Assembly (NCBI RefSeq): GCF_000092405.1
Contig: NC_014220.1
Coordinates: forward strand, 248,001-312,000
DNA length: 64,000 bases
Reading direction: 5' to 3'
DNA from: Syntrophothermus lipocalidus DSM 12680
GTDB taxonomy: Bacteria; Bacillota; Syntrophomonadia; Syntrophomonadales; Syntrophothermaceae
Positions 46,612-61,669 of this stretch are shown here, one piece after another (positions within the stretch are counted from its first letter, which is position 1; every line of letters starts with the position of its first letter). Under the pieces are notes generated by a model. That model had not been told where the DNA came from. It did not search any database and saw nothing but the letters and a program-made list of their open reading frames with translations. A program made the position numbers and the translations under genes.

Positions 46612-47814
46612 TTAATTTTGGTAAGGAGTTGAAGGCGTAACCACGGAGTAGTAAGCCTGTTTGACAGTGCTTGCGAACAGGAAAAGGCTGAGCTTGATCT
46701 CCGTGCAAGCCTGCTTGAGGGAATCCCGGGAAGAAACCCCTTGGCACCGGATAACCGAAGCTGTCCAGACCAGTATGGGAAGACCAAAGAATATGAGCGG
46801 ATGATACCAACAAAGGACGCATGAGAGAAAATCGATTACGTCGAAAATGCTGGGAAAAAGCTTGAGGGAAAGTGTCCCCGTAAGCAGGGCTAAAGGCAAA
46901 GAAACCACCTGGTGGCGTTTTAAGCGGAGGGTTTGAGCAAGGGTGGAGGCTGACAGATAGTGGATGAAGGCCAGCTTGACAAACCCCCCAAGAATCCAGA
47001 TGGTTAAGACCAGGGCTTCTATACGGTTGAGAAACTTGCCGAGCACGATGCCGCGGGCCAAACTGAGAAAAGGCGCGGTTAGAGCCGCGCTGTACTCGAC
47101 AGAAAGAACGGAGACGACGGCTATGGTGAGCCCGATACTGGTCAAACCCAGAAACAAAAGACACCCCAAACTGATCTTGAAGGCGGATGAGGGGAGGTTA
47201 AGGTGATGCATGACGAAAGCGATGGTTCCGAATTCGGCCAGGTAAGTGAGGATGGGTGGAATGGCGGTCAGCACGGGTTTCCAGCCGTGGGCCAGCACCG
47301 GCAGCAGGTTAGAAAAATCGGCTTCCCTCAGAGCCAGAAAGACAGTTACCCCCATCAAGGCGAACACCATAGGTCCGGCGAGCCCAGCCAACCGTCCGAG
47401 GACCCTAATTCCGTTGTTAACCAGATAGACGGAAACCGCCAGAGTGGTCGCGATGAAAACCACAGGCGGGGTTCTAGGTAGAATCGCGACAATCAAAATA
47501 TCGACAAAACCCCGGACTACTGTGGCGGCCAGGAGAAGGTAGCTGAAGAAAAACAGCAGGTTGAGGAACACCCCTAAGGGTTTGCCCAAGGCTGCTTCTA
47601 CTATTTCGACAAAACTGTGCTCGGGATAACGCATACCGGCTAAGACCACCAGCAAGATTAAGGGCAAGCAAAGGACGAGGGCCAGTATTTCTGCTAACCA
47701 GAAGTCCGGACCCGATAGCTGAACTATGCGGGATGGTAGGTAGAGAGCGTAGGTAGTAAAAACAGAGGTTGAGATCAACCAGAAAGCCTGTGATGCTAAG
47801 ATTTTTTCTTTCAT
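46612..47814 (-). CDS. Spore germination permease, GerAB family (third copy)
   Basis: 400 residues with about ten membrane helices, related to amino-acid permeases. The GerB subunit of germinant receptors binds the nutrient in the inner spore membrane. Features: AFWLISTSVFTTYALYLPSRIVQ at the start and LAEFGTIAFVMHHLNLP, followed by LNRIEALVLTIWILGGFVKLAFIHY, the usual helix-8 motif. Extra residues (about 30) follow the last helix. It lies at the end of the minus-strand ger run and its partner gerC lies upstream. Confidence 0.88.
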   Translation of the reverse strand: MKEKILASQAFWLISTSVFTTYALYLPSRIVQLSGPDFWLAEILALVLCLPLILLVVLAGMRYPEHSFVEIVEAALGKPLGVFLNLLFFFSYLLLAATVVRGFVDILIVAILPRTPPVVFIATTLAVSVYLVNNGIRVLGRLAGLAGPMVFALMGVTVFLALREADFSNLLPVLAHGWKPVLTAIPPILTYLAEFGTIAFVMHHLNLPSSAFKISLGCLLFLGLTSIGLTIAVVSVLSVEYSAALTAPFLSLARGIVLGKFLNRIEALVLTIWILGGFVKLAFIHYLSASTLAQTLRLKRHQVVSLPLALLTGTLSLKLFPSIFDVIDFLSCVLCWYHPLIFFGLPILVWTASVIRCQGVSSRDSLKQACTEIKLSLFLFASTVKQAYYSVVTPSTPYQN

Positions 47815-47844
47815 AGAGGCTCCTCCTTTTTTGATTCAGGCACT

Positions 47845-47872
47845 AAAAAATCTGCGTCAATCTGCGTCTTTT
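47845..47872. repeat. Copy of the ATCTGTG-type dispersed repeat (variant)
   Basis: AAAAATCTGCGTCAATCTGCGTC, a diverged unit with TGCG in place of TGTG. It abuts the stop codon of the gerC-type gene at 47876 and separates it from the permease gene. Confidence 0.6.
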
Positions 47873-47875
47873 AGC

Positions 47876-49030
47876 CTAGTACCGGATTACTGCGGTACGG
47901 CGAGTTAGGTGAGTACGGCGAATCTTGGACTCCACGTCAACTTCGACCCTAACTGCAGGGAACACTTCCTCCCAACTGCTACCAACACGGTCCCATGTTT
48001 GCGGATAATGCTGTTTCAATGCTAGCCCAAAGCCGAAAACGTCGGAACCCAGTTCTTGGGCTTTCTTTACCGAATCCAGAACCTGTTGGCGGATGAGTTG
48101 GGCGGATTCTCTTTCCAGGGTCTTAAGCATGGCAGGGGTGACCAGAGGGTGAGTACAGGTCTGTTCGTAAAAGAAGCCCTCTTGCTTTATCTTTACCCGC
48201 ATGATAATCTCTTGTCCTTGGAGTGCAGGGGTGATGCGGCATTGTGAGCGCAAAGACTGGAGCACGACCGGGCTGCCGCAGTATGGACACCGAACTGTCA
48301 TTATACCACCCAAGACCGTTTTCGGTTGTAACCACCGGTACCCGCGCGATTCCTCCTCGTTCATCCATCCAACCAGTTTCCCCTTCATAAAAAGCGCGGT
48401 GCCGGAGATCTGGAGAAAACACCGGCCGCTGGGGTCTTTGACCACGCTGATGCCGGGCACCGCAGGCTCGATGCCAGGCTTGATGGAGCGGATGATAAAG
48501 TCGCGCAAAAGACAGCGCGTGTATATTCCCGCGTACAGATCCTCGCTTTTTATCATCGAAGTCAAGGCTACTCCGGGTATCCTTTCTACTTCTGTAGGAA
48601 CCGACAAAACTTCGGCGGCGGTCGTGTCGCGGGCGATGAAGACATCTCCGGTTTTTCTCACGTTGCGGTTACGCGCAAACTCATCGACCAGGCCGGCCAG
48701 TCCGCGCCGGGCCAGGCTTTCACCCCAAACATTGGCCGACCAGTGCTGCCAGAGGATGCTGCGCGGGTTCTTCAACATGATGTTTCGGCCCGCAGTAGTG
48801 AAGGTTTCACCTGTAGTAGAGACCACCACAAAAGGAGGTGATGGTGGAGTTTGGCCCGGTGTTTTCTGAGAGACCGGAATCTGTACAGTAAAACGCAAGC
48901 GGTCCCCGGGAAGATCATCTAAGCCTACAGCGATGGCTAAATTAGTTTGGTTCAATTCAGTCCGGTCCCAGCAACCGCCGGTGATTATCATGACCGGGAT
49001 AAAGAGCACAAGAAGCCAATTCTTTTTCAC
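47876..49030 (-). CDS. Germination lipoprotein, Ger(x)C family (third copy)
   Basis: 384 residues. A lipoprotein signal ends in ITGGC (Cys 20), followed by WDRTELNQTNLAIAVGLD, the family start. Typical middle: FVVVSTTGETFTTAGRN, SILWQHWSANVWGE, FIARDTTAAEVL, GTALFMKGKLVGWMNEEESRGYRWLQP. The C-terminal helix-strand part (AQELGSDVFGFGLALKQHYPQ) is complete. GerC subunits are anchored in the spore inner membrane and complete the receptor. A pair CPYC in the middle is shared by the copy at 51891 but not by that at 50575. Confidence 0.9.
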   Translation of the reverse strand: MKKNWLLVLFIPVMIITGGCWDRTELNQTNLAIAVGLDDLPGDRLRFTVQIPVSQKTPGQTPPSPPFVVVSTTGETFTTAGRNIMLKNPRSILWQHWSANVWGESLARRGLAGLVDEFARNRNVRKTGDVFIARDTTAAEVLSVPTEVERIPGVALTSMIKSEDLYAGIYTRCLLRDFIIRSIKPGIEPAVPGISVVKDPSGRCFLQISGTALFMKGKLVGWMNEEESRGYRWLQPKTVLGGIMTVRCPYCGSPVVLQSLRSQCRITPALQGQEIIMRVKIKQEGFFYEQTCTHPLVTPAMLKTLERESAQLIRQQVLDSVKKAQELGSDVFGFGLALKQHYPQTWDRVGSSWEEVFPAVRVEVDVESKIRRTHLTRRTAVIRY

Positions 49031-49045
49031 AGCATCACTCCAGGG

Positions 49046-50152
49046 TCAGGTTTGTGTTTCCGGCGGCGACTTTATTGCGGGGCGCTTTATCCGTGCCACC
49101 AGCAACAGCAGCGAGGGTATGACAAGGGAAAAAGTAAAGCCGTACGGCCCGAAAAAGGTGGGGTCGAACAGAGCAGTGTACTCAAGCGTGTTTTCACCTA
49201 AAAGCAGGGCCACCAAGCCGACCAAAACCGACAAAGGAAGTACCAGGGGTTTATAGCACCGCAGGTTAAAGCCTTGGGCCATGGCCTGGGAAGCCCACAT
49301 CAGGTTGAGAGTAACCTGCACGAAAACGCCCCCCAGCCAAACAGTCAGTAACGCCGGCTCCACCCTTTGCACAAACTCGCCGAATGCGATGCGCCTGGCT
49401 ACACTTAACCCCGGGTAGGTAGCCAAAGCAGCGTTGTCAATCCCTAAGCTTGATATAACTACCAGAACGATGGCCATAAGGTGCAATGCACCCAGGGGGA
49501 CTCCCCACTTAACTACCCGGGAGGCATGGGCAGGGTTATCCATAAAAGGTATGACCATCGCCAAGTTAACTATATCTGAACACACGGCCATGGGGGTTAC
49601 GGCATTGGTCAACAAGTTGCCTAGACCGCCGGCCATGAACGGCGAGAGGTTGGACGGCCGCAGCCGGTTCAAGGACAGGAAAATGAGCATCCAGATCAAC
49701 CCTAGCATTACCGGTCCTAGAACCTGGTTGACGAGGGCAATGGTTGTTAATCCCCGGCGGGCGGCGATGACGCTGGTCAAGAGGGTTAAACCCATCAAGA
49801 CGCTGACGGGTGTAAAGATCATGACCGAATTCAGAAAAAAATCGCTCGATATGCGCACCCCCAGGGCCGCAAAAAAAATGAACCACCAGGCATACAAAAG
49901 AGCGAGTATCGAACCGAAAACGGGTCCCAGAAGAGTACGACTGTACTGAATAATAGTCTTATCGGGAAAAATGCTGCCCAGTTTGATGACGATGGCCCCA
50001 ACTAGCCAGGCTACCGGGATGACGAGCAGCGGAACCAACCATACGTCCCGGTTGGGACTGGGGGCGGCACTGACAGGCAACACCATTACTAAGTCAAAAG
50101 CTATGCGAATGGAGAAGCACAGAAGCAACACCTGTAGCCAGTTCACCGTCAT
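49046..50152 (-). CDS. Spore germination permease, GerAB family (second copy)
   Basis: 368 residues with ten predicted helices. The opening MTVNWLQVLLLCFSIRIAFDLVMVLP and later RVEPALLTVWLGGVFVQVTLNLM correspond to GerAB motifs; the middle contains PMAVCSDIVNLAMVIPFMD. It diverges more from typical members than the other two copies. Upstream at 50220 is a small membrane protein gene. The ATG at 50152 has no strong ribosome site (GCAGGCG), so coupling to the upstream gene is probable. Confidence 0.86.
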   Translation of the reverse strand: MTVNWLQVLLLCFSIRIAFDLVMVLPVSAAPSPNRDVWLVPLLVIPVAWLVGAIVIKLGSIFPDKTIIQYSRTLLGPVFGSILALLYAWWFIFFAALGVRISSDFFLNSVMIFTPVSVLMGLTLLTSVIAARRGLTTIALVNQVLGPVMLGLIWMLIFLSLNRLRPSNLSPFMAGGLGNLLTNAVTPMAVCSDIVNLAMVIPFMDNPAHASRVVKWGVPLGALHLMAIVLVVISSLGIDNAALATYPGLSVARRIAFGEFVQRVEPALLTVWLGGVFVQVTLNLMWASQAMAQGFNLRCYKPLVLPLSVLVGLVALLLGENTLEYTALFDPTFFGPYGFTFSLVIPSLLLLVARIKRPAIKSPPETQT

Positions 50153-50219
50153 TCGAAGATTGACGCCTGCGGATCTAATCAGAGGGACCCCCTTTACTTT
50201 CGCCTGCCTTTTTTGGGCG

Positions 50220-50423
50220 TTATGGCTGGAAACGAAATACGGTCTCTAAAGCTCTGACCGGGTTGGGAAGGGGCCAGTTGTAAAACTGGCCCAGGCTGTA
50301 CAATACGGCGATAGCCATCAAAACCGAAAACACCGCCAATTCCCGGTACATCTTGTCCCTCAAAAGCGGGGGGACATCGATAAGGATGATGACAAGGAAC
50401 AGCAGAATCAGCAAAGCCAGCAT
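50220..50423 (-). CDS. Small membrane protein in the ger cluster
   Basis: 67 residues with two hydrophobic segments (about 1-18 and 28-48) and a polar C-terminus NWPLPNPVRALETVF. ATG behind TAGGAGGG at normal distance. Similar mini-proteins lie in germination operons of many Bacilli and Clostridia (GerD-like or unnamed); here it could modulate the receptor. No homology is claimed. Confidence 0.7.
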   Translation of the reverse strand: MLALLILLFLVIILIDVPPLLRDKMYRELAVFSVLMAIAVLYSLGQFYNWPLPNPVRALETVFRFQP

Positions 50424-50445
50424 AACTCACCCTCCTAGCAGTCTA

Positions 50446-50566
50446 GAGCCACAGATTTACACAGATGGAGCACAGATTATCACTGATAACTATTATCTAC
50501 ATTACCCCATTTCAACAGCAATCTGTGTACATCTATGCAAATTCGTGTTTATCTGTGGCTCATCAA
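50446..50566. repeat. Inverted pair of ATCTGTG-type repeats
   Basis: GAGCCACAGATTTACACAGA at 50446-50465 and, after a 50-base spacer, ATCTGTGTACATCTATGC... ATCTGTGGCTC at 50521-50562 in inverted orientation. It fills the gap between the small membrane protein gene and gerC. The right end lies about ten bases from the gerC stop codon. Confidence 0.75.
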
Positions 50567-50574
50567 TCTTCGGC

Positions 50575-51711
50575 TCATCGCAGATACAGGATTTTCGTCA
50601 AGAAGTTGCTCCTTCTGATATTGACATCGACCTGCACGGAGACGGGCACGGTAGGGAATATGGTTTCCCAGTTCTTCTCCATGGATTGCCATGCGCGAGG
50701 GTATCTCCGGCTCACAGCCAGCCCTAGACCGAATATGTCAGACTCTAGAGATTGGGCTTTGTAAATTGCCGCCAAGACTTCGTCTTCAATCTGGCGCTCG
50801 CCTTCGGCTTCTAGTTGGGAAATTGTGGGACTAGTCAATAAATCATGGGTGCATTTTTGTTCGTAAAACATTGCGTCGTCCCTAATCTTGATGCTGAACG
50901 CCACTCTGCCGTTTTCCAACCGGGGTATGATTTCTGATCTCGTTCTAAGCATCTCCAACAAGACTGGTTTGCCGTCGAAAGGGCAGGTGACGGTAACCGT
51001 CCCTCCTCTTACCTGTTTGGGGCGCAGCCAGCGGTAACCCCGCGATTCACGGGTATCTAACCATCCTACCAGGTGCCCTTTTCTAAAAACCGCAGTGCCG
51101 GAAAGCCTCAGCGTCTTTTTCCCTGAAGCGTCCGATATAACTTCCACTCCAGGAATTACAGGCTCGATACCGGGAGCCGCGAGCTTGGAAAGCACTTCAT
51201 TGATCCTCACTTCTGTATACACTCCTGTGGTCGGGTCTTGCGATCTTATCATGGCTTTGAGGGCCTGGACAGAAGATTTTTCAATGACCGGAGCGGTTTC
51301 AAGCACCTGGCGAGCTTCTGAACCTCGTGCCACAAAAATATCGGTGTTTTCTCGAAGGTGAGGACTTCGTAACATGAGATCGACCATGTCTACCAGGTTT
51401 CTTGCCATAGCTTCTCCAACAACGAAGGCGGCTATGTGTTCGATAATCTGAACTCTGGGGGATTCTAGGGTTATTCTCCGGCGTCCCACGGACACCGTTT
51501 GGCCGGGGGCAGAAACAACGACGAAAGATGGACCCCTGCTGATGTCAGGCGGTAGCATGAGCTGGAAAGAGGTTAATATATTTTGGTCTGGTAAGAGATC
51601 CATACCCGCCCCACCTATGACAACGGCCTGGGGAAACTCTACACGCCCCCAGCAGCCTGATGTTGCCAAGAGGGAAAAGATAAGAATGAGCAAACATATC
51701 CTTCGCCGCAT
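50575..51711 (-). CDS. Germination lipoprotein, Ger(x)C family (second copy)
   Basis: 378 residues with a lipobox ATSGC (Cys 20) followed by WGRVEFPQAVVIGGAGMD. The central pieces FVVVSAPGQTVSVGRR, FVVGEAMARNLVDMVDLM, FVARGSEARQVL and GTAVFRKGHLVGWLDTRESRGYRWLRP match the other copies. The Cys pair in the middle of the other GerC proteins is replaced by CPFDGKP. The C-terminal domain (QSLESDIFGLGLAVSRRYPR) is intact. RBS AGGGAG lies before the ATG. Confidence 0.9.
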   Translation of the reverse strand: MRRRICLLILIFSLLATSGCWGRVEFPQAVVIGGAGMDLLPDQNILTSFQLMLPPDISRGPSFVVVSAPGQTVSVGRRRITLESPRVQIIEHIAAFVVGEAMARNLVDMVDLMLRSPHLRENTDIFVARGSEARQVLETAPVIEKSSVQALKAMIRSQDPTTGVYTEVRINEVLSKLAAPGIEPVIPGVEVISDASGKKTLRLSGTAVFRKGHLVGWLDTRESRGYRWLRPKQVRGGTVTVTCPFDGKPVLLEMLRTRSEIIPRLENGRVAFSIKIRDDAMFYEQKCTHDLLTSPTISQLEAEGERQIEDEVLAAIYKAQSLESDIFGLGLAVSRRYPRAWQSMEKNWETIFPTVPVSVQVDVNIRRSNFLTKILYLR

Positions 51712-51742
51712 GTTTCAACTCCCTGCTGTGAGGATTCGAGCC

Positions 51743-51890
51743 ACAGACGGACACAGATACTTAGACGCAGATTAACCCAGATTTATAATTATGATTACAA
51801 ATAATAATTAATAATTCATCTGCGTCAATCAGCGTCTAATTAAAAATAGAATCCGTGATCATCTGTGCTAATCTGTGTATATCTGTGGCT
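51743..51890. repeat. Inverted pair of ATCTGTG-type repeats
   Basis: GAGCCACAGACGGACACAGA at 51739-51758 and, inverted, GTGCTAATCTGTGTATATCTGTGGCTC at about 51866-51892, with further ATCTGCGTC-type units (51770-51835) between. The right end reaches the stop codon of the gerC gene at 51891. Nothing else is seen in this 180-base gap. Confidence 0.75.
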
Positions 51891-53072
51891 CTAAAATCTG
51901 TACTGCAACGTTTCAGTGGTGAGGTAACTCCGCCTGATCTCGGATTTGACATGGATCTCGACCTCGAGTGTTGGGAATACCTGGGCCCACTTGCTCTCAA
52001 GGCTGGCCCATTCTTTGGGGTAGCTCTCAAAAACGGCCTGGCCGAAGCCAAAGATATCTGAGTCGAGACTTTGGGCTTTATTGACTGCCGCGCGCACTTG
52101 GCGCGTTATTAATTGGGCGGCTTGCTGCTCGAGTTGAGGGAGTGTTTTAGGAGTCAGGAGCTGGTGAGAACAAGTTTGTTCGTAAAAATTGCCTTCTTCC
52201 TTTATGTCGATGGTTATGATAATTCTTCCATCGCTTATCCGGGGCTTTATCCGGCACTGTGAACGCGTGGTATCGAGCAGTACCGGTTTGCCGCAAAACG
52301 GGCATTTGACAAGTTTGGTGCCTCCAGCCAGGGGGGTCGGACGGAGCCACCTGTATCCCCGCGATTCTTCTTCGTCAAGCCACCCGACCAGGCGGCCTTC
52401 TTTGAAAACCGCCATGCCAGAGAGATGCAGGGCCTTCTTACCGTTCTCGTTGACTATCTCTACTCCTGGAACAGCAGGTTCTATCCCTGGCGTTATGGTT
52501 TTGGTAAGGAAGTCACCCATGTCAGTAGGGGTGTATATACCTATATGCAGATCCTGGTTCTTGATCATGGAAACCAGGGCTGGGCCGGGCAGCTTTTCCA
52601 CCTCCGTCGGCACTTGAAGAACCTGGGCGGCGGTTGAGTTTCGGGCTACAAAGAGGTAGCCGGTTTTACGTATATTACGGTTACGCAGAAAGTAGTCGAC
52701 GGCTCCGCTCAGTCCTTGGCGGCAGAGGTCTTCGCCTAGTAAGTAACAGTAAGCGTGCTGCCAGAGGGGGCTGCGGGGTTGTCTTAAATGCACGTTGCGC
52801 GGTCCTTCGGTGAGGGACCTCCCATCTCTAGAGACTGTCACGAAGGTGGGCGAAGAGCGGGCTGTCTTTGCCCCTTTCTGCTTTCCCGCTTGGGGCGGCA
52901 TTTCAGCAATTTGTTCGGTAAACATGAGATGTCTTTTAGCGGCAGCGTCCCACCCGATTGCAACTACCACAAAATTGTCGTTAATCTCGCGGCTGTCCCA
53001 ACAGCCGGAAACCGAACCTAGGCTAACCAGCACTACTAGCAGAATCAGGTACTTTCTGGTCATTGCATTCAT
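51891..53072 (-). CDS. Germination lipoprotein, Ger(x)C family (first copy)
   Basis: 393 residues. A signal sequence ends at the lipobox SVSGC (Cys near 24), then WDSREINDNFVVVAIGWD. The family blocks are all present: FVTVSRDGRSLTEGPRNVHLRQPRSPLWQHA, FVARNSTAAQVL, GMAVFKEGRLVGWLDEEESRGYRWLRP, and the C-terminal SLDSDIFGFGQAVFESYPKEW. Its start overlaps the end of the gerB gene by 50 bases, so the first receptor set is gerA-gerB-gerC in order. Confidence 0.91.
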   Translation of the reverse strand: MNAMTRKYLILLVVLVSLGSVSGCWDSREINDNFVVVAIGWDAAAKRHLMFTEQIAEMPPQAGKQKGAKTARSSPTFVTVSRDGRSLTEGPRNVHLRQPRSPLWQHAYCYLLGEDLCRQGLSGAVDYFLRNRNIRKTGYLFVARNSTAAQVLQVPTEVEKLPGPALVSMIKNQDLHIGIYTPTDMGDFLTKTITPGIEPAVPGVEIVNENGKKALHLSGMAVFKEGRLVGWLDEEESRGYRWLRPTPLAGGTKLVKCPFCGKPVLLDTTRSQCRIKPRISDGRIIITIDIKEEGNFYEQTCSHQLLTPKTLPQLEQQAAQLITRQVRAAVNKAQSLDSDIFGFGQAVFESYPKEWASLESKWAQVFPTLEVEIHVKSEIRRSYLTTETLQYRF

Positions 53073-54144
53073 TTCTTCGCCACCACGATAGGATTAATAA
53101 AACCAACGGCAAGATTACGGCAAACACCAACATCACCCGGTAGAAAAAGAAATCGTAAAAGAACTTCAATTCAACTGTATTCCTGAACATTGCGATGCTC
53201 AAGGCGCCGATCAGAAGGGCGAACGGTAGCACCAGAAAGCGGTAATCACGCAAACGCACGGCCGCGGCGCTGGTATGGGCAATGACAAAAAGCAAGAGGC
53301 TGGTTTTGACAAAAGCGTTGGTTATCCAAATAGCGACAAACACCGCGTCTACCCTTTCTATAAAATCCCCTACCGAGATGTTCCTTACTACAGAATAAAT
53401 AGGATAAGAAAGAACTCCTGCCAGGTAGTGGTTGAAAACCCCGATGCTGAGCAGAGTAAAAACACATATCCAGAAGGCCGAGGACAGCACACTGCCGAGG
53501 ACGGAAAGGTACGTCCGGCTGCGATTGCTGACAAACGAGGATAAAAAAAACGCGATGTAAGATTCGGCAAAGACATGTGAATGTTTCCAGGCCCCCGGCG
53601 CCAGCGGTAGTATACCTCTTGGTACGAAGGGCAAGAAGTTATTCCAGTCAATGTTGAAGCAAGAAAGAGCTGCTGTGAGCAAAGCCCCAAAAGTGTTAGT
53701 CCAAAAAAAGACTTCGGCTAACCGGCCAATCGTGGCTAGTCCCCGGCGGGCAGCCCAAGCCGCGGCTGCGAGGAGAAAACCGGCAAACACGCTCACCGGT
53801 ACGACAAAAAGCACTACCGAGAGTGCAAACTCGAAAAACATCCGAAGGCCAAGCGCACAGGAAAAGATAAGGAAAAACAAATACGAGAGAATCAAGGCTT
53901 TGGCCAACCACTTTCCCAGGCTTGATTCGAAAAAAGGGACCAGGCCTATGTTTGCCTTGGATGCTAAAGCCGAATAGACCAAGGAATAAGGTAAGGCAAC
54001 CAGAGCACAAAACCAGGCCAGGATCCAGCCGTTGTTGCCGCCGGCTCTGATGAGGTGAGGAGGCTCAAAGATGGCAGTACTGGACATAATCATGAACATC
54101 AAAAGACAGTAGAGCTGAAAAGGGGAAATTCGATTACCCATCAT
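53023..54144 (-). CDS. Spore germination permease, GerAB family (first copy)
   Basis: 373 residues, about ten membrane helices. It begins MMGNRISPFQLYCLLMFMIMSS, the usual GerAB opening. Later ERVDAVFVAIWITNAFVKTSLLL is the helix-8 motif. The ATG at 54144 overlaps the gerA stop codon (TAATG-type coupling); the frame is open further upstream inside gerA but not used. The gene overlaps the gerC start. Confidence 0.9.
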   Translation of the reverse strand: MMGNRISPFQLYCLLMFMIMSSTAIFEPPHLIRAGGNNGWILAWFCALVALPYSLVYSALASKANIGLVPFFESSLGKWLAKALILSYLFFLIFSCALGLRMFFEFALSVVLFVVPVSVFAGFLLAAAAWAARRGLATIGRLAEVFFWTNTFGALLTAALSCFNIDWNNFLPFVPRGILPLAPGAWKHSHVFAESYIAFFLSSFVSNRSRTYLSVLGSVLSSAFWICVFTLLSIGVFNHYLAGVLSYPIYSVVRNISVGDFIERVDAVFVAIWITNAFVKTSLLLFVIAHTSAAAVRLRDYRFLVLPFALLIGALSIAMFRNTVELKFFYDFFFYRVMLVFAVILPLVLLILSWWRRNECNDQKVPDSASSAG

Positions 54145-55688
54145 TACGCCTGCCGCAGCCGGTTCCCTGGGGCCAGTGTTTGGGGACGCCGAACACTGCT
54201 CCACCAGGGACGCCGTACCAGGATGTCTCCCAGGTCTTCCCACCGCATAGGAGCCAAGGGAGCCAGGTAAGGCACTCCAAAGGAGCTGATGGAAGCCAAA
54301 TGAATTAGCAAGAAGATTATGCCTATCATTAAGCCGAAATAACCCAGGAAGGCGGCGGCTATGAGCATCAGGAAACGCACCATGCGAAGAGAAACCCCGG
54401 CGCTGTATACTGGGATGCTGAACGAGCAGATTCCGGTAAAAGCTACTACCACCACCATTGGCGTAGAAACCAGACCGGCGGAAACGGCTGCGTCTCCTAT
54501 GACCAGGGCCCCGACGATACTTATGGCGGGGCCGATGGCGCGAGGCATACGAAGCCCAGCCTCCCGCAGGATTTCGAAGGTGACCTCCATCAAGAAGGCT
54601 TCGAGAAAAGTGGGGAAAGGTATTCCCTCCCGGGCAGCGGCGATGGTCAGAAGCAATGGGGTAGGAATCATTTCCTGGTGATAGGTTATAGTAGCTACGT
54701 AAATCGACGGCAAAAGCAGGGTCGCCAAAAAGGCGATCTGTCGAAGTATCCGAGTCAGGGTCGAAGGTATGTACCGCATGTAGTAGTCTTCCGGTGAGTT
54801 CCAGAACTGGGGGAAGGTTGTGGGTACCACCATGGCCCAGGGGGAACCGTCTACCAGGACCGCGACCCGTCCTTCTAGAAGGTGCCCGACTACCCGGTCT
54901 GGCCGTTCAGTGTGTTCTACTTGAGGAAACAGCGAGAAGCGGTGGTCTTCGATGAGTTCCTCCAGATAACCGACGTCCAGCACCCCATCGATGTCGATTG
55001 TCTGAAGACGTTTTTTTACTTCGTTGACCAGGGAATCCTGAGCTATGTCCTGGATATAGCAGATGACGATGCTGGTGCGGGTAATCCTGCCCAGTACCAT
55101 GCTTTCTGTTTTAAACCGGTTGGTTTTCAGGCGACGGCGGAGGAGCGCGGTGTTGAATCTCAGGGTTTCGGTGAATCCTTCTTTCGGACCCCGGATCAAA
55201 ACTTCTTCATCCGGGCTTTCAACTTTTCGGCTTTCCCAGCTCTTAAAGTCGAGGATCAGGGCTTGAGCGTATCCGTCGATGAGCAGGGCCGCGTCTCCCG
55301 AGGCGGTGAACTCGACTACCTCTTGGAAGGTGGTTGCTTCCTGCAGTTCGGCTGCGGTAAGCAGGTAGTCGCGGACTGCAGTGTAGATGTCGAACGATTT
55401 TGTCTCGGGACTCCGTTTCAGTATATCAAAATCGATCATCAGAGGGCGAAGCACGGCGGTTTCAGCTTCGTTCTTCAGCATCAAGCCGTCGAAGTAAACC
55501 AGGGCTGCGTCTATGCTTAGCTCCCGGCCGAACTTGAACTTCCTCACCACGGCGTCGGAACAGCCTTGAAAAAGCTTCTGCAAATATTGCAGGTTGCTCT
55601 CGAGGGAGGTCGAAAGCTTGCTTGAGATTATTTCTTCATCGGTAGGTTGAATCTCAGGAGAACCGGGACTCCGCGTTATGTATCTCAT
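54144..55688 (-). CDS. gerAA: Spore germination protein GerA
   Basis: 514 residues, the A subunit of the nutrient germinant receptor, in the spore inner membrane. Two cytosolic N-terminal halves (about 1-290) with EGRVAVLVDGSPWAMVVPTTFPQFWNSPEDYYMRY at the junction, then four to five membrane helices (about 300-470) with REGIPFPTFLEAFLMEVTFEILREAGLRMPRAIGPAISIVGALVIGDAAVSAGLVS, the most conserved stretch, and a polar tail with PRRP-like PMRWEDLGDILVRRPWW. ATG 55688 has GAGGAGAT. Single gerA copy for three gerB and three gerC. The 342 bases before it (to 56034) hold no clear sigma-G or sigma-F promoter. Confidence 0.94.
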   Translation of the reverse strand: MRYITRSPGSPEIQPTDEEIISSKLSTSLESNLQYLQKLFQGCSDAVVRKFKFGRELSIDAALVYFDGLMLKNEAETAVLRPLMIDFDILKRSPETKSFDIYTAVRDYLLTAAELQEATTFQEVVEFTASGDAALLIDGYAQALILDFKSWESRKVESPDEEVLIRGPKEGFTETLRFNTALLRRRLKTNRFKTESMVLGRITRTSIVICYIQDIAQDSLVNEVKKRLQTIDIDGVLDVGYLEELIEDHRFSLFPQVEHTERPDRVVGHLLEGRVAVLVDGSPWAMVVPTTFPQFWNSPEDYYMRYIPSTLTRILRQIAFLATLLLPSIYVATITYHQEMIPTPLLLTIAAAREGIPFPTFLEAFLMEVTFEILREAGLRMPRAIGPAISIVGALVIGDAAVSAGLVSTPMVVVVAFTGICSFSIPVYSAGVSLRMVRFLMLIAAAFLGYFGLMIGIIFLLIHLASISSFGVPYLAPLAPMRWEDLGDILVRRPWWSSVRRPQTLAPGNRLRQA

Positions 55689-55931
55689 CGAGATCTCCTC
55701 GCTCTCACAGTTGCTGGTAGCATAGAAAGCTAGCGCCTTTGTTAGTCGGCTGCTTCCAGGCTTTACTTGAACAAAGACGATAATACCGCTTACTAAAGTC
55801 TGTATCAAACCTTGTCATTATATTCAAAAATTGATACTCCATCCAAACAGTGCATAGCGTTTTTTGTTCGACCCCTCAACATCTGGTACAGTTGCTGGAG
55901 GGCCTGCCTAAGTCTAAGCGAGGGGATTGGT

Positions 55932-55944
55932 GTCACGGTGTGAC
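55932..55944. promoter_or_regulatory. Inverted repeat upstream of the Hsp70 cluster
   Basis: GTCAC, GGT, GTGAC: a small perfect dyad about 90 bases before the first gene of the cluster, between it and the divergent gerA. It may be an operator. A TAGAAT at 55977-55982 is a possible -10 but no -35 is spaced for it. Confidence 0.25.
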
Positions 55945-56033
55945 GAGTTTTGGATGCGGCCAGATTCCCGTTGTTGTAGAATTAAGAGGTGAAGCGAAAT
56001 GAGGTTCAGGCTGGTAAGGCATGACAGCACTTG

Positions 56034-56735
56034 ATGGTGAAGAGGATGAGGGCGGTTTTACGCAAACTGGTTGACCGGATTCCTTTGGAAGAAGAGGAAT
56101 ACCGGCGTCTCCTTGCTTATACAGAAACTCTACGTTCCGGTAGCGAGGAATCGTACAGGGTATTCCGCGACAATTACGGTTCCCTGCTGATGGCTGACTA
56201 CGGAATCCGGTTGCCCCGGTTTGCCAGCGGGCGAGCCGAGTTTCTAGAGTACTTGTGTCAGAATTGGGAGGTAGTACAGGCTTTAAAGCTTGGCCCGTTG
56301 CCGGTAAGCACTATGCCGGTAAGCCTACAAGAATACCTGCGAACGGAGTACGGGTCCGAGATCAAGGCCGAACAGGTAAGGGATCTCGTCGAGTGGATTG
56401 AACGGAACCAAACTGCCGGGCACGGGTTGCCCCGGCCCAGGAAGAGGGACCCGGTGCTGGTTTATGAGGTGGGCAACGAAAATAAGGAGATCGGACTGGC
56501 GCAACATTTTAGAAGAATCGCCCGGCACCCGTTTGTCAGCAGGATAGTTAGCGTGCGCTACCTGTCGAGGGGCAAAGCGGCTCAAGACCGTTTCGAGGTG
56601 CGGGGAGAGGATGTCTTATCAGGTATTTTTACCAATAAGGAAAAGTCTATTTACTATTTGGTCTACCTTACCGAAGCTGATCTATGCAAAGCGGCCAATG
56701 CCTGCAATTTACTGAACCACGTTTTCTACGGATAG
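56034..56735 (+). CDS. Uncharacterised protein, first gene of the Hsp70-like cluster
   Basis: 233 residues, soluble, no family recognised. The N-terminal part is helical and charged (LRKLVDRIPLEEEEYRRLLAYTETL); the C-terminal part is more globular (LVYEVGNENKEIGLAQHFRRIARHPFVSRIVSVRYLSRG ... IYYLVYLTEADLCKAANACNLLNHVFYG). No membrane helix or signal. The ATG at 56034 overlaps the stop of an 11-codon leader frame (55999-56034) that has its own ribosome site, which would couple translation. It is divergent from gerA and 90 bases ahead of the next gene. Confidence 0.65.
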   Translation: MVKRMRAVLRKLVDRIPLEEEEYRRLLAYTETLRSGSEESYRVFRDNYGSLLMADYGIRLPRFASGRAEFLEYLCQNWEVVQALKLGPLPVSTMPVSLQEYLRTEYGSEIKAEQVRDLVEWIERNQTAGHGLPRPRKRDPVLVYEVGNENKEIGLAQHFRRIARHPFVSRIVSVRYLSRGKAAQDRFEVRGEDVLSGIFTNKEKSIYYLVYLTEADLCKAANACNLLNHVFYG

Positions 56736-56825
56736 CGTGTGTTATACATGGGATTCCTTAGCACGAGACTGGAACCGGCTTTTTAACCTGACAAACTCTT
56801 GACGGTTGATAGGAGTCAGAGGCTT

Positions 56826-58307
56826 ATGACCATTGGATTGAAGGACATCGTAAAAAGCGTAGCTTCCATAGGCCCGAACGAAGACATTTTCGCATACTGG
56901 AGCCGGGAACTGGAAGGCCGCAAGAGGGTAAGAAGCCTGATATCCAAGGGCGCGAGGCTAGAACTTGAGATTGACCGGGACGTGCTTGACTTTTTGTTTC
57001 GGGTGTTATGTCTGAGCCAGAGCCAGCGCCTCTTGTACCGTGTATTGTGGGATTACTCCGACCAGATGGCTGTTATCAGGTGGCTGGGCGATAGGTCCGA
57101 AGGGTTTAGGCTACGTTTCCTGCAACAACTAGCCGAGCTATGGCCGCAGAAAGACGGTCGAGGCCGACGGGACTTTTTAATAAACATATATACCCCGGCC
57201 CTAACCGATGCCTATCGCCGGTTATTGGCTGGCTTTGATAGTAAAGATATCGATTACCTAATTTCACGGACAGCTAATCCGGAGCTGCGCCGTCTCTTGC
57301 GGGAAGAGAAAGAAAAGATAGAGATTCGAGCGAGAGAATCCCGTCTGGGCGTGGCCATACACAAGGTCAGGGCCCGGGATTTGGACTGCATTTTCGGAAA
57401 TAAGACGGAACTTGCCAAATCGCTGTTGTCTAGCCTTGAGCAGGCCGAAGCCGAACTTTACGAGCATCCTTACCGGGTTGATAGGCTTTTGAAACTCTGT
57501 GAGTGTTGCGTAAGGTTATTTGAACTGGGTTGGATTGAGGACAGCCTGGTTTTGACCGTCGAGACTTACAGCGATTTCATGGAAAGAGGCAGGCTGCAGG
57601 GGAGAGAAGCGGTTCGAGTCTACCGCCGTTTAGATCGTTTGGCCCGGGCCGTCATCCCGGTTTATTGCTTGCTGGAGTTTGGTGAGAACCTGGGGAGGGA
57701 AGTAGAGAAGCTATACCGGTCTTGCCTCAGTCAACTGGTAGTCGAGAACGCATCGCTCGCTTATCTGGAACTTTATGAGCGTTTGCAGGAAGCGAGGAGC
57801 ACGCCTTCGGTGTATCCCCGGTCGGAGGTGGAGAGATTCTGTCTAAGACTAGCCAAGACCAGACCAGATGATGCAATAATCAAATGTCTTAAGGGCAGGG
57901 AACGAGAAGGTGTTGACATTGAGGGCTGTATGCAAGCAGTGGGAGAGCGGATGAAGAGCCGACCCCACGAGGCTTTCGTAATTATGGAGTTCGTACGCCT
58001 GGTGGTCATGCCCGGATTGGACGTTCGAAGGAAGTCTAAGGTGGGCGAATCTATGCTGACCCGTTATTTGGATTTGTGGGGCTGGGTCCCCAACGTTCGT
58101 TTTATGAACCGGGAAATAGCGGAGTCTCTGAGTGCGGTGGCAAAAGGCGAGACCCGGCGACAGGTGTTTGACGTCCTACGCTGGACAGAAGCTTTCGCCA
58201 ACAGAGATAACCAACTCTATTCTAATAAAAAAGAACTGGTTCGGGGCAAGGGCAGTAAAGCAGCTTTGCAGGCGTTTCTCGGCAGGGTTTTGGGGGTGAC
58301 GGATTAG
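56826..58307 (+). CDS. Uncharacterised helical protein, second gene of the Hsp70-like cluster
   Basis: 493 residues, Arg/Glu/Leu-rich, predicted almost wholly alpha-helical, no known motif. Segments such as YWSRELEGRKRVRSLISKGARLELE and a repeat-like middle (RLLKLCECCVRLFELGW, LELYERLQEARS) suggest a solenoid of the TPR or armadillo kind. No membrane helix. ATG 56826 follows AGGAG (56811-56815); the TTG at 56799 is the upstream alternative. The stop overlaps the start of the next gene by one base, so the two are coupled. Confidence 0.65.
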   Translation: MTIGLKDIVKSVASIGPNEDIFAYWSRELEGRKRVRSLISKGARLELEIDRDVLDFLFRVLCLSQSQRLLYRVLWDYSDQMAVIRWLGDRSEGFRLRFLQQLAELWPQKDGRGRRDFLINIYTPALTDAYRRLLAGFDSKDIDYLISRTANPELRRLLREEKEKIEIRARESRLGVAIHKVRARDLDCIFGNKTELAKSLLSSLEQAEAELYEHPYRVDRLLKLCECCVRLFELGWIEDSLVLTVETYSDFMERGRLQGREAVRVYRRLDRLARAVIPVYCLLEFGENLGREVEKLYRSCLSQLVVENASLAYLELYERLQEARSTPSVYPRSEVERFCLRLAKTRPDDAIIKCLKGREREGVDIEGCMQAVGERMKSRPHEAFVIMEFVRLVVMPGLDVRRKSKVGESMLTRYLDLWGWVPNVRFMNREIAESLSAVAKGETRRQVFDVLRWTEAFANRDNQLYSNKKELVRGKGSKAALQAFLGRVLGVTD

Positions 58308-59935
58308 TGGAACCAGAACTATCGAACCTAAAAGAGGCTTGTCAGGCGGTTTTGAACTCGCTCCTCGGCCAGCTCAGAAATGAGATCGAGGAACTGACCT
58401 CGGTTCAAAACCTGTTTTTGCCCTCAGGGACGGTCGATATCGAGGTTTTGGAGGATTATCTGTATCACGTCAACAGCTTTTACTACCGTACCTTCGACCA
58501 GAAGATGATACCTGTGTATATAGAAAAGGTTAACCGGATGATGGCCGAAATTTACCGGGTCAGCAGGCAGGGGGAGCAGGTAAAAAATGACCTTGTCAGC
58601 AACCTGGTGCGTTGTGCCGGGCTTTCCAACCTGCTTAAGCATTTTACTCAGGTCTTGAGCGATCTGGAGCAGGTAATTCAGCAGGAGTTGAAGGCTTTAA
58701 CCGACAACCGTATGAGGGTCAACCGGCAATTAATTGAAGTAGTAGAAGACTTAACCTCCGAGATCAGGTCCTTGGAACAGCAGTTCAACATCGTGGAGAA
58801 AATTCAGAGGGATGCCGAGTGGGCTGAGCTGATCAAAAGCGACGTTAACCTGTTGCCGGCGGTTTGTTGGTGGGAGGAAGGGTGGACAGGTGAACCCGGT
58901 GCCAGGATTCGAGACGAACTGGGGCGTTGGCTGGGACAAGCCGAAACGTTTGTACAAATGCTCGAGGATGTGGCCGCACCTCCTAGGGAGTCGAGGCTCG
59001 GTGATTCCTGGCCCGGCTTGCTTGAAAAGGCTCTAGCGCTGGGTCGGGCCTTGGAGTTCTCTTCGTCCCTACGAAACCTGATACGGGAGACAATAGGCGC
59101 CTGGCTGGAATTTGAAGCGGAGAGATTGGGCTTCTACCAGCGGCAGGTTTCAAGCAACAAGATGGCCGAACACACGGCGAGGTTTGCAGAAGAAGCGAGA
59201 CACCGCTTGGGACAGTGGGTAAAGATTTTTCGGTGCCTTCTTCGGTTTAGCCGCGAAGGCCTCGAACCGGAGATGTTAAGCGAATTCAGGTGGATGAGAT
59301 CACTTGCAGGAGATTATGCCGGATCGATAGCCCGTTTATTGCGAGAGTTTCAGAGGGAACTGGAGGCGCTGGCCGACAAGCTGCAGCGCTACCCGGACCT
59401 CAGTCCCTTGGAGTTGGAGAAGCTTTTCGAGGAAACTGTTTATCGATATGAACAGGAATTGCGCGAACGCTGGTCCAGGGCGAATCTTCCCTGGCCGAGC
59501 CGATTCGGGTACCGGGTCGAGTATACCTTAGAATACCTGGAGCTGATTGATGTCAAGCTCCGCTATCACCGGGAACGGCTGCAGATGTATCTGGAAGCAC
59601 AGGGGCGTTACCGTGAGGTCGCGGAGGGTCTGCGCAGGTGCCGCCAGCTGTTTTCCGGGTTTGGGGAGGATGTAGATAACCTGTTGTCTCCACGCACTCT
59701 GAAACGGGCATGGAAGGACCTGCCGGTAGAGGTCAGGCGCTATCCCATCAAAGTGGGAGAAAAACTGCCCCCGGAGTGCCTGCCGGTTTTGGACAAAGGA
59801 TATGTGGAACGCAAACCGGTTTCCGAAAAGGAGCATCTCGTGGTTCTAGAAGAAAAGGGAGACGTGTTTTGGATACAGGTTGATGGGATTGAGCGCTGGG
59901 AGGTACCTTATCTGGTGGTGGGTATGAAAAGGTAG
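58307..59935 (+). CDS. Uncharacterised coiled-coil protein, third gene of the Hsp70-like cluster
   Basis: 542 residues. The first 170 or so have heptad character (LEQVIQQELKALTDNRMRVNRQLIEVVEDLTSEIRSLEQQFNIVEKI), as do residues 330-430 (LLREFQRELEALADKL, LEKLFEETVYRYEQELRERW). The C-terminal 80 residues form a small beta-rich domain (PIKVGEKLPPECLPVLDKGYVERKPVSEKEHLVVLEEKGDVFWIQVDG), which could bind a ligand or protein. No known family. GTG start overlapping the previous stop; the Hsp70-like gene follows after three bases. Confidence 0.65.
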   Translation: MEPELSNLKEACQAVLNSLLGQLRNEIEELTSVQNLFLPSGTVDIEVLEDYLYHVNSFYYRTFDQKMIPVYIEKVNRMMAEIYRVSRQGEQVKNDLVSNLVRCAGLSNLLKHFTQVLSDLEQVIQQELKALTDNRMRVNRQLIEVVEDLTSEIRSLEQQFNIVEKIQRDAEWAELIKSDVNLLPAVCWWEEGWTGEPGARIRDELGRWLGQAETFVQMLEDVAAPPRESRLGDSWPGLLEKALALGRALEFSSSLRNLIRETIGAWLEFEAERLGFYQRQVSSNKMAEHTARFAEEARHRLGQWVKIFRCLLRFSREGLEPEMLSEFRWMRSLAGDYAGSIARLLREFQRELEALADKLQRYPDLSPLELEKLFEETVYRYEQELRERWSRANLPWPSRFGYRVEYTLEYLELIDVKLRYHRERLQMYLEAQGRYREVAEGLRRCRQLFSGFGEDVDNLLSPRTLKRAWKDLPVEVRRYPIKVGEKLPPECLPVLDKGYVERKPVSEKEHLVVLEEKGDVFWIQVDGIERWEVPYLVVGMKR

Positions 59936-59938
59936 GTA

Positions 59939-61669
59939 ATGCCGGTGAACCTGGGAATAGACTTCGGTACAAGCTACACCAAACTGGGTTATGTCGATGA
60001 AGACGGCCATTTCGTCAACCTGCTCGGGCCTGGGGGGATGCTGCCTTCGGTGGTTGCATTGGCACCAGAGGGAGGCAGGTTGTGCTTCGGTTCGGATAGC
60101 TTGTCTTTACCGAAAGAGGAAGCGGAAATCGTCCGGTTCTTCAAGATCGAGCTAAAGCGGAACCTGAATTTCAGGGTGGGAGACTTTGGCTTGAGTGAGA
60201 TATTGGGGTCGTACTTTTCCTATCTCCGTGACCAGTATGTTGCCGGAAGTCTGCCGCACCCGTTGCAGGCGGTTACGGTCGGTGTTCCCAATTACTTCGG
60301 TCTAAAAGCCCGGCGGATGTTGTTAGAGACGGTAAGAAGCGTTTTCCCCGGGGTCCGGGTGAGGCTGGCCTTGGAACCGGTAGCTGCTTTGGTCGGGTTG
60401 TTGGCCGAAGGGGGACCGGATGAGGCCCGGTTGTGGCAGGGCAACATTCTAATCCTTGACCTCGGCGGAGGGACGGCCGACGCCAGCTTCGTTCACGTGA
60501 GGCCAGACCGCAAGGTGAGAGTAGTATTAGAAGCCCAGCTGCACGCCGGCAGCGATGCTTTCAGCGGGGCGGAAATTGACAAGTCGGTTCTTCGCCAAAC
60601 TCTTTTCCCTTGCTTCGAGGCGAATACCGGAATAACGATTCCGCCGAGGTTCAAGAAGGAAAAAGGTTTGAACCGGGAGGAGCTGTACGAATACTCGAGA
60701 ATGTTGAAATGGGCAGAGGAAGTCAAACTCAGGATGCAAGGGCAGGAGGATATAGTTATCGATATACCGTCTTTTTACCGGGGACGGAGCCTATCAGCGG
60801 TTTTTGAAAAAAGGAATTTGTCTTTGGTTTTCGAACGCACTTTATCAAGATTGGAAGATTTCATAAACAACGTGGTGGGGCCTAGTGCCGAGCGCTTGGG
60901 GCTGTTCGGGGCCGGGAAATGGGATATCGACATCGTGGTGTTAACAGGTGGAGTTTCTAAGATGCAAGGGGTGGAAGAGGTCGTGTCTCGAATAGGATCG
61001 CGGGTGTATCGTCCTTACTCGCCCGAATTCAGCGTAATCCAAGGTTTGTGCCGGTGGCCGGGAGGAGAGTCTGCTTTAAACCTGGAAGTCAAGACCTTGC
61101 TTCCCTTTCGTTTCTATATTGAAAAGAAAGGGACAGAACCGGAATTGGACACTATCCCCTTCGACACCGCTAATCTGGAGTTGGATTCCGGCGGAGTCTA
61201 CCGGTTGTTTTCTGTGTTGCCAACCTCTCCCTACAACCTGTCCGAGGATAACGGTAGGGTTAAGATCCGTATTTACCAAGGGGGAGAAGCCCAGGAACCG
61301 CAAGAGATTAGAACTGACCCCGAAGGCTTGGTACTAGAGGAGTCACGCCCGGTGCAGGGGGATGAACCGCTTGAGGTCTGGTTAGACCTGGCGGAATCTT
61401 GTTTGAGGGTAGCCGAAGAACCGGAGCTTGAGGTCGAGGGTGCAATCGCGGGAGATGTCCCCTGCCTGTGGGAAGCGGGGTTGGACAGGCAACATGAGGT
61501 TTTGGCCCGGGTCCGCAGGTTACAGCTGTGCCGGCCAGAGGTAAGCGGGTATTATGCCGCAGTGCTGGAGGGACTTAAACGCGGCCGCCCGTTCCAGAAC
61601 TTCGACGAAGCCGTCAAAGCCAAGCTGCTACTCTTTTTAGACATGCTTTCGCAGTCAAACCATAGTTAA
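59939..61669 (+). CDS. Hsp70-like (DnaK/actin-superfamily) ATPase
   Basis: 576 residues. The N-terminal ATPase domain (about 1-370) is clear: GIDFGTSYTKLG (phosphate 1), VTVGVPNYFGLKARRMLLETV, LEPVAALVG, ILDLGGGTADASFV (phosphate 2) and VVLTGGVSKMQGVEEV (adenosine). The last 200 residues contain no typical substrate-binding domain of DnaK and end with helices (ALEGLKRGRPF...LLLFLDMLSQSN). So it is an ATP-driven switch, perhaps a specialised chaperone for the two unknown partners. It is the fourth gene of the unit and follows the coiled-coil gene by three bases. It resembles in principle, not sequence, the SrfB/SrfC pairing of an Hsp70-like and a coiled-coil protein. Confidence 0.85.
   Translation: MPVNLGIDFGTSYTKLGYVDEDGHFVNLLGPGGMLPSVVALAPEGGRLCFGSDSLSLPKEEAEIVRFFKIELKRNLNFRVGDFGLSEILGSYFSYLRDQYVAGSLPHPLQAVTVGVPNYFGLKARRMLLETVRSVFPGVRVRLALEPVAALVGLLAEGGPDEARLWQGNILILDLGGGTADASFVHVRPDRKVRVVLEAQLHAGSDAFSGAEIDKSVLRQTLFPCFEANTGITIPPRFKKEKGLNREELYEYSRMLKWAEEVKLRMQGQEDIVIDIPSFYRGRSLSAVFEKRNLSLVFERTLSRLEDFINNVVGPSAERLGLFGAGKWDIDIVVLTGGVSKMQGVEEVVSRIGSRVYRPYSPEFSVIQGLCRWPGGESALNLEVKTLLPFRFYIEKKGTEPELDTIPFDTANLELDSGGVYRLFSVLPTSPYNLSEDNGRVKIRIYQGGEAQEPQEIRTDPEGLVLEESRPVQGDEPLEVWLDLAESCLRVAEEPELEVEGAIAGDVPCLWEAGLDRQHEVLARVRRLQLCRPEVSGYYAAVLEGLKRGRPFQNFDEAVKAKLLLFLDMLSQSNHS

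Follow-up and report, generated by a model that had tools for sequence, protein, structure and literature searches.

In the bacterial class that includes Syntrophomonas and Syntrophothermus, an Hsp70-family protein encoded by the last gene of a conserved four-gene cassette has been reduced stepwise, with loss first of the active site, then of subdomain IIB and then of lobe I, while the three partner genes g1, g2 and g3 have been retained; in one genus a 78-residue tail is all that remains of it. Since the ATPase has been lost in about four lineages that keep g1-g3, it is optional within the family of this fourth protein, g4, and the C-terminal end of g4, not its motor, appears to be the least dispensable part.

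Hsp70s are usually treated as ATP-driven chaperones that are defined by their nucleotide cycle. The g4 family constitutes a natural series, from intact ATPase to 78-residue tail, within an otherwise constant four-gene set, and makes the contribution of an Hsp70 apart from ATP hydrolysis directly testable. The cassette also provides a near-universal marker, so far unannotated, for a class of syntrophic fatty-acid oxidisers that sustains methanogenesis, and is likely to be a component of their physiology. Judged by sequence comparison, g1, g2 and g3 are undescribed orphan families and g4 is a member of the known Hsp70 superfamily; g1 adds a new protein family without known fold, as compared with the PDB and a viral library. 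We give even chances to the proposal that the four proteins make up one soluble cytoplasmic complex specific to this class, with g4 as a docked subunit, g1 as effector and g2 and g3 as scaffold. A more far-reaching version, to which we assign somewhat less than an even chance, is that this is a new cytoplasmic machine, near-universal in the class, in which three new families are joined by an Hsp70 that is being dismantled in parallel to a nucleotide-free structural subunit, the docking tail being the last part to remain.

A four-gene cassette confined to one clade

The window is a stretch of 64,000 nucleotides, bases 248001-312000 of the single 2,405,559-bp chromosome of Syntrophothermus lipocalidus. 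The cassette and its immediate surroundings are composed as follows.

54144..55808, minus strand: GerA spore-germination protein, divergent neighbour outside the system (Pfam GerA, 1e-190)
55999..56034, plus strand: open reading frame of 11 codons, MRFRLVRHDST, which has a good Shine-Dalgarno sequence and whose TGA (56032-56034) overlaps the ATG of g1 (TGATG)
56034..56735, plus strand: g1, open reading frame of 233 aa; the alternative start ATG 56046 is the family's usual one
56826..58307, plus strand: g2, open reading frame of 493 aa from ATG 56826, or 502 aa if TTG 56799 is the start
58307..59935, plus strand: g3, open reading frame of 542 aa
59939..61669, plus strand: g4, 576 aa, Hsp70 family (Pfam HSP70, 2.3e-10)

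The four genes are real and form one tight operon in S. lipocalidus. An earlier, sequence-only reading of this DNA had described four genes on one strand, separated by 90 bases (g1/g2), a 1-base overlap (g2/g3) and 3 bases (g3/g4), and the open reading frame calls give precisely these junctions; the GC content and base composition of the cassette are the same as those of its surroundings. The same reading let g1 begin at 55999, which is incorrect. The ATG at this position is in another frame than g1 and opens the 11-codon open reading frame, and the start of g1 is ATG 56046 when it is taken from the alignment with 29 relatives (mostly with MRxILRKL at the N-terminus), and otherwise ATG 56034. 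With its strong Shine-Dalgarno sequence and its TGATG overlap with g1, the 11-codon frame is a possible translational-coupling leader; no such frame was seen upstream of g1 in L064 and L065, the closest two relatives. A short inverted repeat in the intergenic region between gerA and g1 (TGTCAC-GGT-GTGACG, 55931-55945) is a possible operator. The minus strand from 46612 to 55808 carries tandem germination genes, with GerA and with GerB- and GerC-type genes in repeated pairs, and these are present together with SpoIVA although the published description of S. lipocalidus is that of a non-sporulating species (PMC3035303).

Genes g1-g4 occur in order in about 80% of the class genomes examined. When g2 is used for the count, 50 of 63 genomes and 23 of 29 genera have it, and its absences are clustered by clade (all five genomes of family f2, and genera g9, g10 and g18). 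Relatives of g4 and g3 are found together among the 60 nearest genomes. In the 40 loci that were compared, gene order and strand are the same on all contigs that are sufficiently long and free of assembly breaks, with the exception of two loci of genus g23, and the junctions are across genera mostly overlapping or almost touching. That four genes recur in one order across dozens of genomes is more than chance. Neighbourhood analysis had been proposed beforehand as the check on the cluster, with scattered genes or membership in well-described separate families as the outcomes that would speak against it; what is found is that the genes are co-conserved and that g1-g3 fall into no described family, and both observations support the original notion of an anonymous operon for an Hsp70-based multi-protein machine. 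The main texts of publications on S. wolfei make no mention of the four genes, which in that species lie at positions 461169-467253 of the G005 contig.

Inserts separate the cassette genes in a few genomes (L065, L097 and the S. wolfei-like L075, where g3 and g4 lie 579 bp apart), so that not all carriers have the genes in a strict operon. Some gene absences or fragments may be assembly faults, since the genomes of several carriers are fragmented MAGs; the in-frame TAG in g2 of G003 is a possible example. An in-frame TAG within g2 of L065 is possibly a MAG error as well. The cassettes of L065 (13721-14974) and L097 (between g3 and g4) are interrupted by oppositely oriented open reading frames of some 325-329 residues, possibly insertion elements or, again, MAG errors. 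Many family f3 genomes have, as the next gene after g4 and in the same orientation, one for a cysteine-containing protein of about 270 residues (cluster c11; L083:6982-7785 and orthologues); this possible fifth operon member in f3 is absent from the window.

The genes that flank the cassette vary by family, from which follows that the cassette itself is the conserved unit. In family f1 it is flanked by the gerA germination operon in three genera, and the adjacency of GerA and g1 is found only there; in family f3 the flanks contain acyl-CoA dehydrogenase, acetate transporter and heterodisulphide-reductase-type genes (names read from sequence). The divergent placement beside a germination operon had been noted correctly, and it had suggested a link with sporulation. 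That the cassette is an accessory operon for sporulation or germination would agree with the gerA neighbourhood in f1, but is highly improbable when the other genomes are taken into account: SpoIVA is present in relatives without cassette (all five f2 genomes, G011, G014 and G015) as well as in carriers, the neighbours in the other family are unrelated, the orientation varies (same strand in L065), and S. lipocalidus is, as noted, described as non-sporulating (PMC3035303).

Each genome that carries the cassette has one copy of it, in stable neighbourhoods that are specific for the family. A profile search in 399 genomes of the phylum gave 10 matches for g1, 11 for g3 and 11 for the C-terminal domain of g4, all within the order, and none of the three was found in the 383 Bacillota genomes sampled outside it. 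Phyla beyond Bacillota were covered by a peptide-pattern scan of the whole GTDB with g4 only, which returned an ordinary DnaK, and distant relatives may exist there. No copies of g1 were found in collections of plasmids, phages and viral contigs. Since the cassette is present in about 80% of the class, while g1, g3 and the C-terminal domain of g4 are absent from the 383 other Bacillota genomes and g1 from the mobile collections, the system is specific to this clade and is inherited vertically.

The same distribution bears on the suggestion, also made from the sequence, of a function in defence. With its Hsp70-like ATPase and its coiled coils the cassette could then be an anti-phage system, or a defence system of another kind, similar to those McrBC/CoCoNuT systems that bear an Hsp70. 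CoCoNuT systems indeed bring coiled coils and HEAT-like helices together with Hsp70 NBD/SBD units (PMC11090510), and fast-evolving orphan genes are compatible with such a role. However, a single copy in stable neighbourhoods of one class only is unlike mobile defence islands, g1 is not carried by plasmids, phages or viral contigs, PADLOC gives no match of note, no member contains a P-loop/Walker A motif, and McrB, McrC and nuclease matches are lacking. We therefore consider a defence function improbable.

The Hsp70 and its three partners

The g4 protein is divided into three parts.

59939-61069, plus strand: nucleotide-binding domain (NBD), residues ~1-377 (AlphaFold model, Pfam HSP70)
61082-61414, plus strand: SBD-beta-like sandwich, residues ~382-492 (predicted structure)
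61457-61657, plus strand: three-helix C-terminal tail, residues ~507-573 (predicted structure)

By sequence the NBD matches Pfam HSP70 (2.3e-10) and DnaK in the PDB (1e-10). Its HH probability as an Hsp70 domain is 99.7, and its identity to DnaK is about 26-28%. The active site, DGTKEDGGGTDGG, has 13 of 13 catalytic positions intact in S. lipocalidus and in 19 other members. In DnaK numbering these positions are D8, G10 and T11 (phosphate-1), K70, E171, D194-GGGT199-D201 (phosphate-2) and G341-G342 (adenosine). The assignment of g4 as an ATP-binding protein of actin/Hsp70 fold is thereby confirmed. The housekeeping DnaK of S. lipocalidus is encoded by a separate gene elsewhere in the genome, and a second non-housekeeping Hsp70, of 542 residues, lies outside the cassette (G000:C1:1802559-1803755).

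For what follows the NBD the evidence is of a different kind. In the AlphaFold2 model that was built from 35 family sequences (pLDDT 89.1), the NBD is followed by eight strands and then by three helices. The top Foldseek matches of the model are full-length DnaK and BiP (DnaK 5.1e-27), and two-domain entries reach a TM-score by query of 0.60-0.62 as against 0.53 for an NBD-only entry, which means that the C-terminal domain of g4 contributes aligned residues. The order of the strands and the motifs VKIRIYQGGE and LEVWLDL also parallel the SBD-beta of DnaK by eye. Sequence profiles detect nothing: with the C-terminal domain alone no Hsp70 was found in PDB or Pfam searches, and its HH alignment with the DnaK SBD was no better than alignments with shuffled columns. 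An SBD-beta identified by sequence was for this reason rejected, and what is retained is a claim at the level of the fold, according to which residues 382-492 are probably SBD-beta-like. The contention of the sequence-only reading that g4 has no DnaK-type substrate domain is, at this level, probably wrong.

The most conserved of the four proteins is g1 (alignment A1, n=30), with a helical N-terminal half, an alpha/beta C-terminal half and the invariant residues E145, N148, K151, E152, H158, R170, R175, K181, K204, S205, E214 and N228. It had been said to match nothing known, as had g2, and both statements hold in profile searches: neither has a significant match in Pfam, NCBIfam, PADLOC or PHROG, also when some 30 members of each family are scanned singly, and for g2 the same applies to PDB sequences. 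When the AlphaFold model of g1 (pLDDT 88.7) was used for a fold search, nothing was found at E <= 0.001 in the PDB (350,542 chains) or in the viral library, and weak PH/PTB-like matches were judged to be due to chance and not significant. As compared with these two collections, a new fold is a possibility for the predicted structure of g1.

The g2 protein appears alpha-helical by eye (alignment A2, n=28), and g3 is a long protein of helical or coiled-coil type (alignment A3, n=34). In agreement with the coiled coil that had been proposed for the third gene, g3 has coiled-coil-type profile matches only, and no described Pfam, NCBIfam, PADLOC, PHROG or PDB family is matched. Its C-terminal ~100 residues are conserved and end in GDxFxIxVDxxxxxEIP. 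By eye this motif suggested a GrpE-like exchange factor, a candidate that was rejected: the HH probability is 1.9% for the whole protein and 4.6% for the C-terminus, and the score of the C-terminus against GrpE is not convincingly above shuffles.

None of the four proteins has a transmembrane segment. This is of significance for the idea of a cytoskeletal or cell-envelope scaffold, in which a protein of actin/Hsp70 fold polymerises or anchors coiled-coil filaments. An actin-fold protein with a partner of coiled-coil type would fit such a scaffold, as would the atypical, Gram-negative-staining envelope of the group (PMC3035303). Against it stand the lack of membrane segments and the fact that the best matches of g4 are Hsp70s with an SBD-like domain, and not MreB, ParM or FtsA, which leaves the scaffold little chance of being correct. 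A flagellar link was rejected, too, since FliG does not track the cassette: it is found in genomes that have no cassette, and several carriers lack it.

Repeated loss of the ATPase

The site of g4 is damaged in 15 of 35 members, and in 14 of these subdomain IIB is missing as well. The remaining one, L084, retains IIB and has E-to-G and GGGT-to-GEAA replacements in the active site, and is thus an apparent intermediate. Forms without IIB have a length of about 465 aa, some, of about 420 aa, have also lost a large part of lobe I, and three proteins of about 350 aa start inside the NBD. When the g4 states are placed on the tree of g1+g2+g3, which carries long-branch warnings, 4 changes are required, as compared with 11.7 for shuffled labels, and strongly supported branches make at least 3 of the 4 unavoidable. 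Since regain of the site is implausible, this corresponds to about four independent losses of the ATPase.

The degenerate proteins are under purifying selection. Their omega is 0.24-0.26, near that of intact g4 (0.16-0.28), from which follows that the remnants are not pseudogenes. The reduction is most extensive in genus g23, where g1-g3 are complete and the slot after g3 is occupied by an open reading frame of 78 residues (L095:3236-3472, L099:8541-8777) with an omega of 0.39. It is homologous to the helical tail of g4 only, with a score of 14.7 bits for L099 (0 of 3000 shuffles) and 6.4 bits for L095 (15 of 3000). In the alignment of g4, residues 385-432 are occupied in 100% of the rows.

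To see what these losses imply, consider a dedicated Hsp70 chaperone team, where g4 is an ATP-driven foldase or assembly chaperone for one client in syntrophic metabolism, and g1-g3 are either co-chaperones (analogues of J-protein and exchange factor) or the client. Dedicated gene pairs of Hsp70 and cochaperone are known, as in HscA-HscB and HscC-DjlC (PMC8215388), and the intact catalytic site and two-domain predicted fold in S. lipocalidus, together with the intact site in 19 other members, would fit such a team. But HPD and GrpE-like partners were sought and not found, the J-domain HPD motif occurring in at most 2 of 35-39 members in any of the four families, which argues against a team of DnaK type, and a foldase cycle would not tolerate that the ATPase is repeatedly lost with its partners kept. 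A chaperone team is, in consequence, rather unlikely. The idea of an ATP-driven machine, put forward in the first description of the cluster, may apply in some lineages at most, and it fails in the roughly four where the ATPase site is gone and g1-g3 persist.

The observations are consistent with the soluble complex proposed at the outset. Here, the helical tail at the C-terminus of the Hsp70-derived g4 would tether it to the complex, with g3, which is helical, of coiled-coil type and encoded just upstream, as the most likely docking partner and g2 as the other candidate. The most conserved subunit, g1, would be the likely effector, and g2 and g3 would provide the scaffold. In S. lipocalidus, where g4 combines an intact ATPase site with an SBD-beta-like domain, binding and hydrolysis of ATP would probably open and close the complex or aid its assembly. 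In the other lineages with an intact g4, too, assembly or activity would be gated by the nucleotide state. Since several lineages have dropped the ATPase and kept the other parts, the indispensable role of g4 would be structural or regulatory, and the nucleotide cycle a dispensable layer on top of it.

Comparison with known systems

In the SrfABC plan, the Hsp70-like ATPase SrfB has a coiled-coil partner, SrfC. The cassette, which had been likened to SrfB/SrfC, has this general plan of ATPase and coiled coil in common with it, but the families differ and the likeness goes no further: neither SrfB nor SrfC gives a Pfam match at E <= 1 among the four proteins. In CoCoNuT systems, coiled coils and helical repeats are joined to an Hsp70 NBD/SBD unit (PMC11090510). 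The cassette resembles them, and McrBC systems, in its Hsp70 unit and coiled coils. It differs in that it lacks the McrB GTPase and McrC, both of which CoCoNuT systems require, has no nuclease, is not mobile and belongs to one class.

The model of g4 is like DnaK, HscA and HscC in having an NBD with all catalytic motifs, an SBD-beta-like sandwich and C-terminal helices, and it is known that specialised Hsp70s can have partner genes of their own. Unlike these systems, the cassette has no J protein or GrpE, has three orphan partners and has lost its ATPase repeatedly; g4 is moreover distant from DnaK over the NBD, and has a C-terminal domain that escapes detection by sequence.

The known analogue is Ssz1 in the ribosome-associated complex (RAC) of yeast, a structural partner subunit derived from Hsp70, for which the nucleotide cycle is dispensable. 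The structure of Ssz1 (6sr6) is among the Foldseek matches of g4. On the ribosome the partner of Ssz1 is the J-protein Zuotin, whereas the cassette has no J-domain protein or known link to the ribosome, and in contrast to Ssz1 the ATPase of g4 is intact in many members. By analogy with Ssz1, g4 is probably a docked structural or regulatory subunit, a Hsp70-derived partner for which the genomic support is the repeated loss of the ATPase in cassettes that retain the partners.
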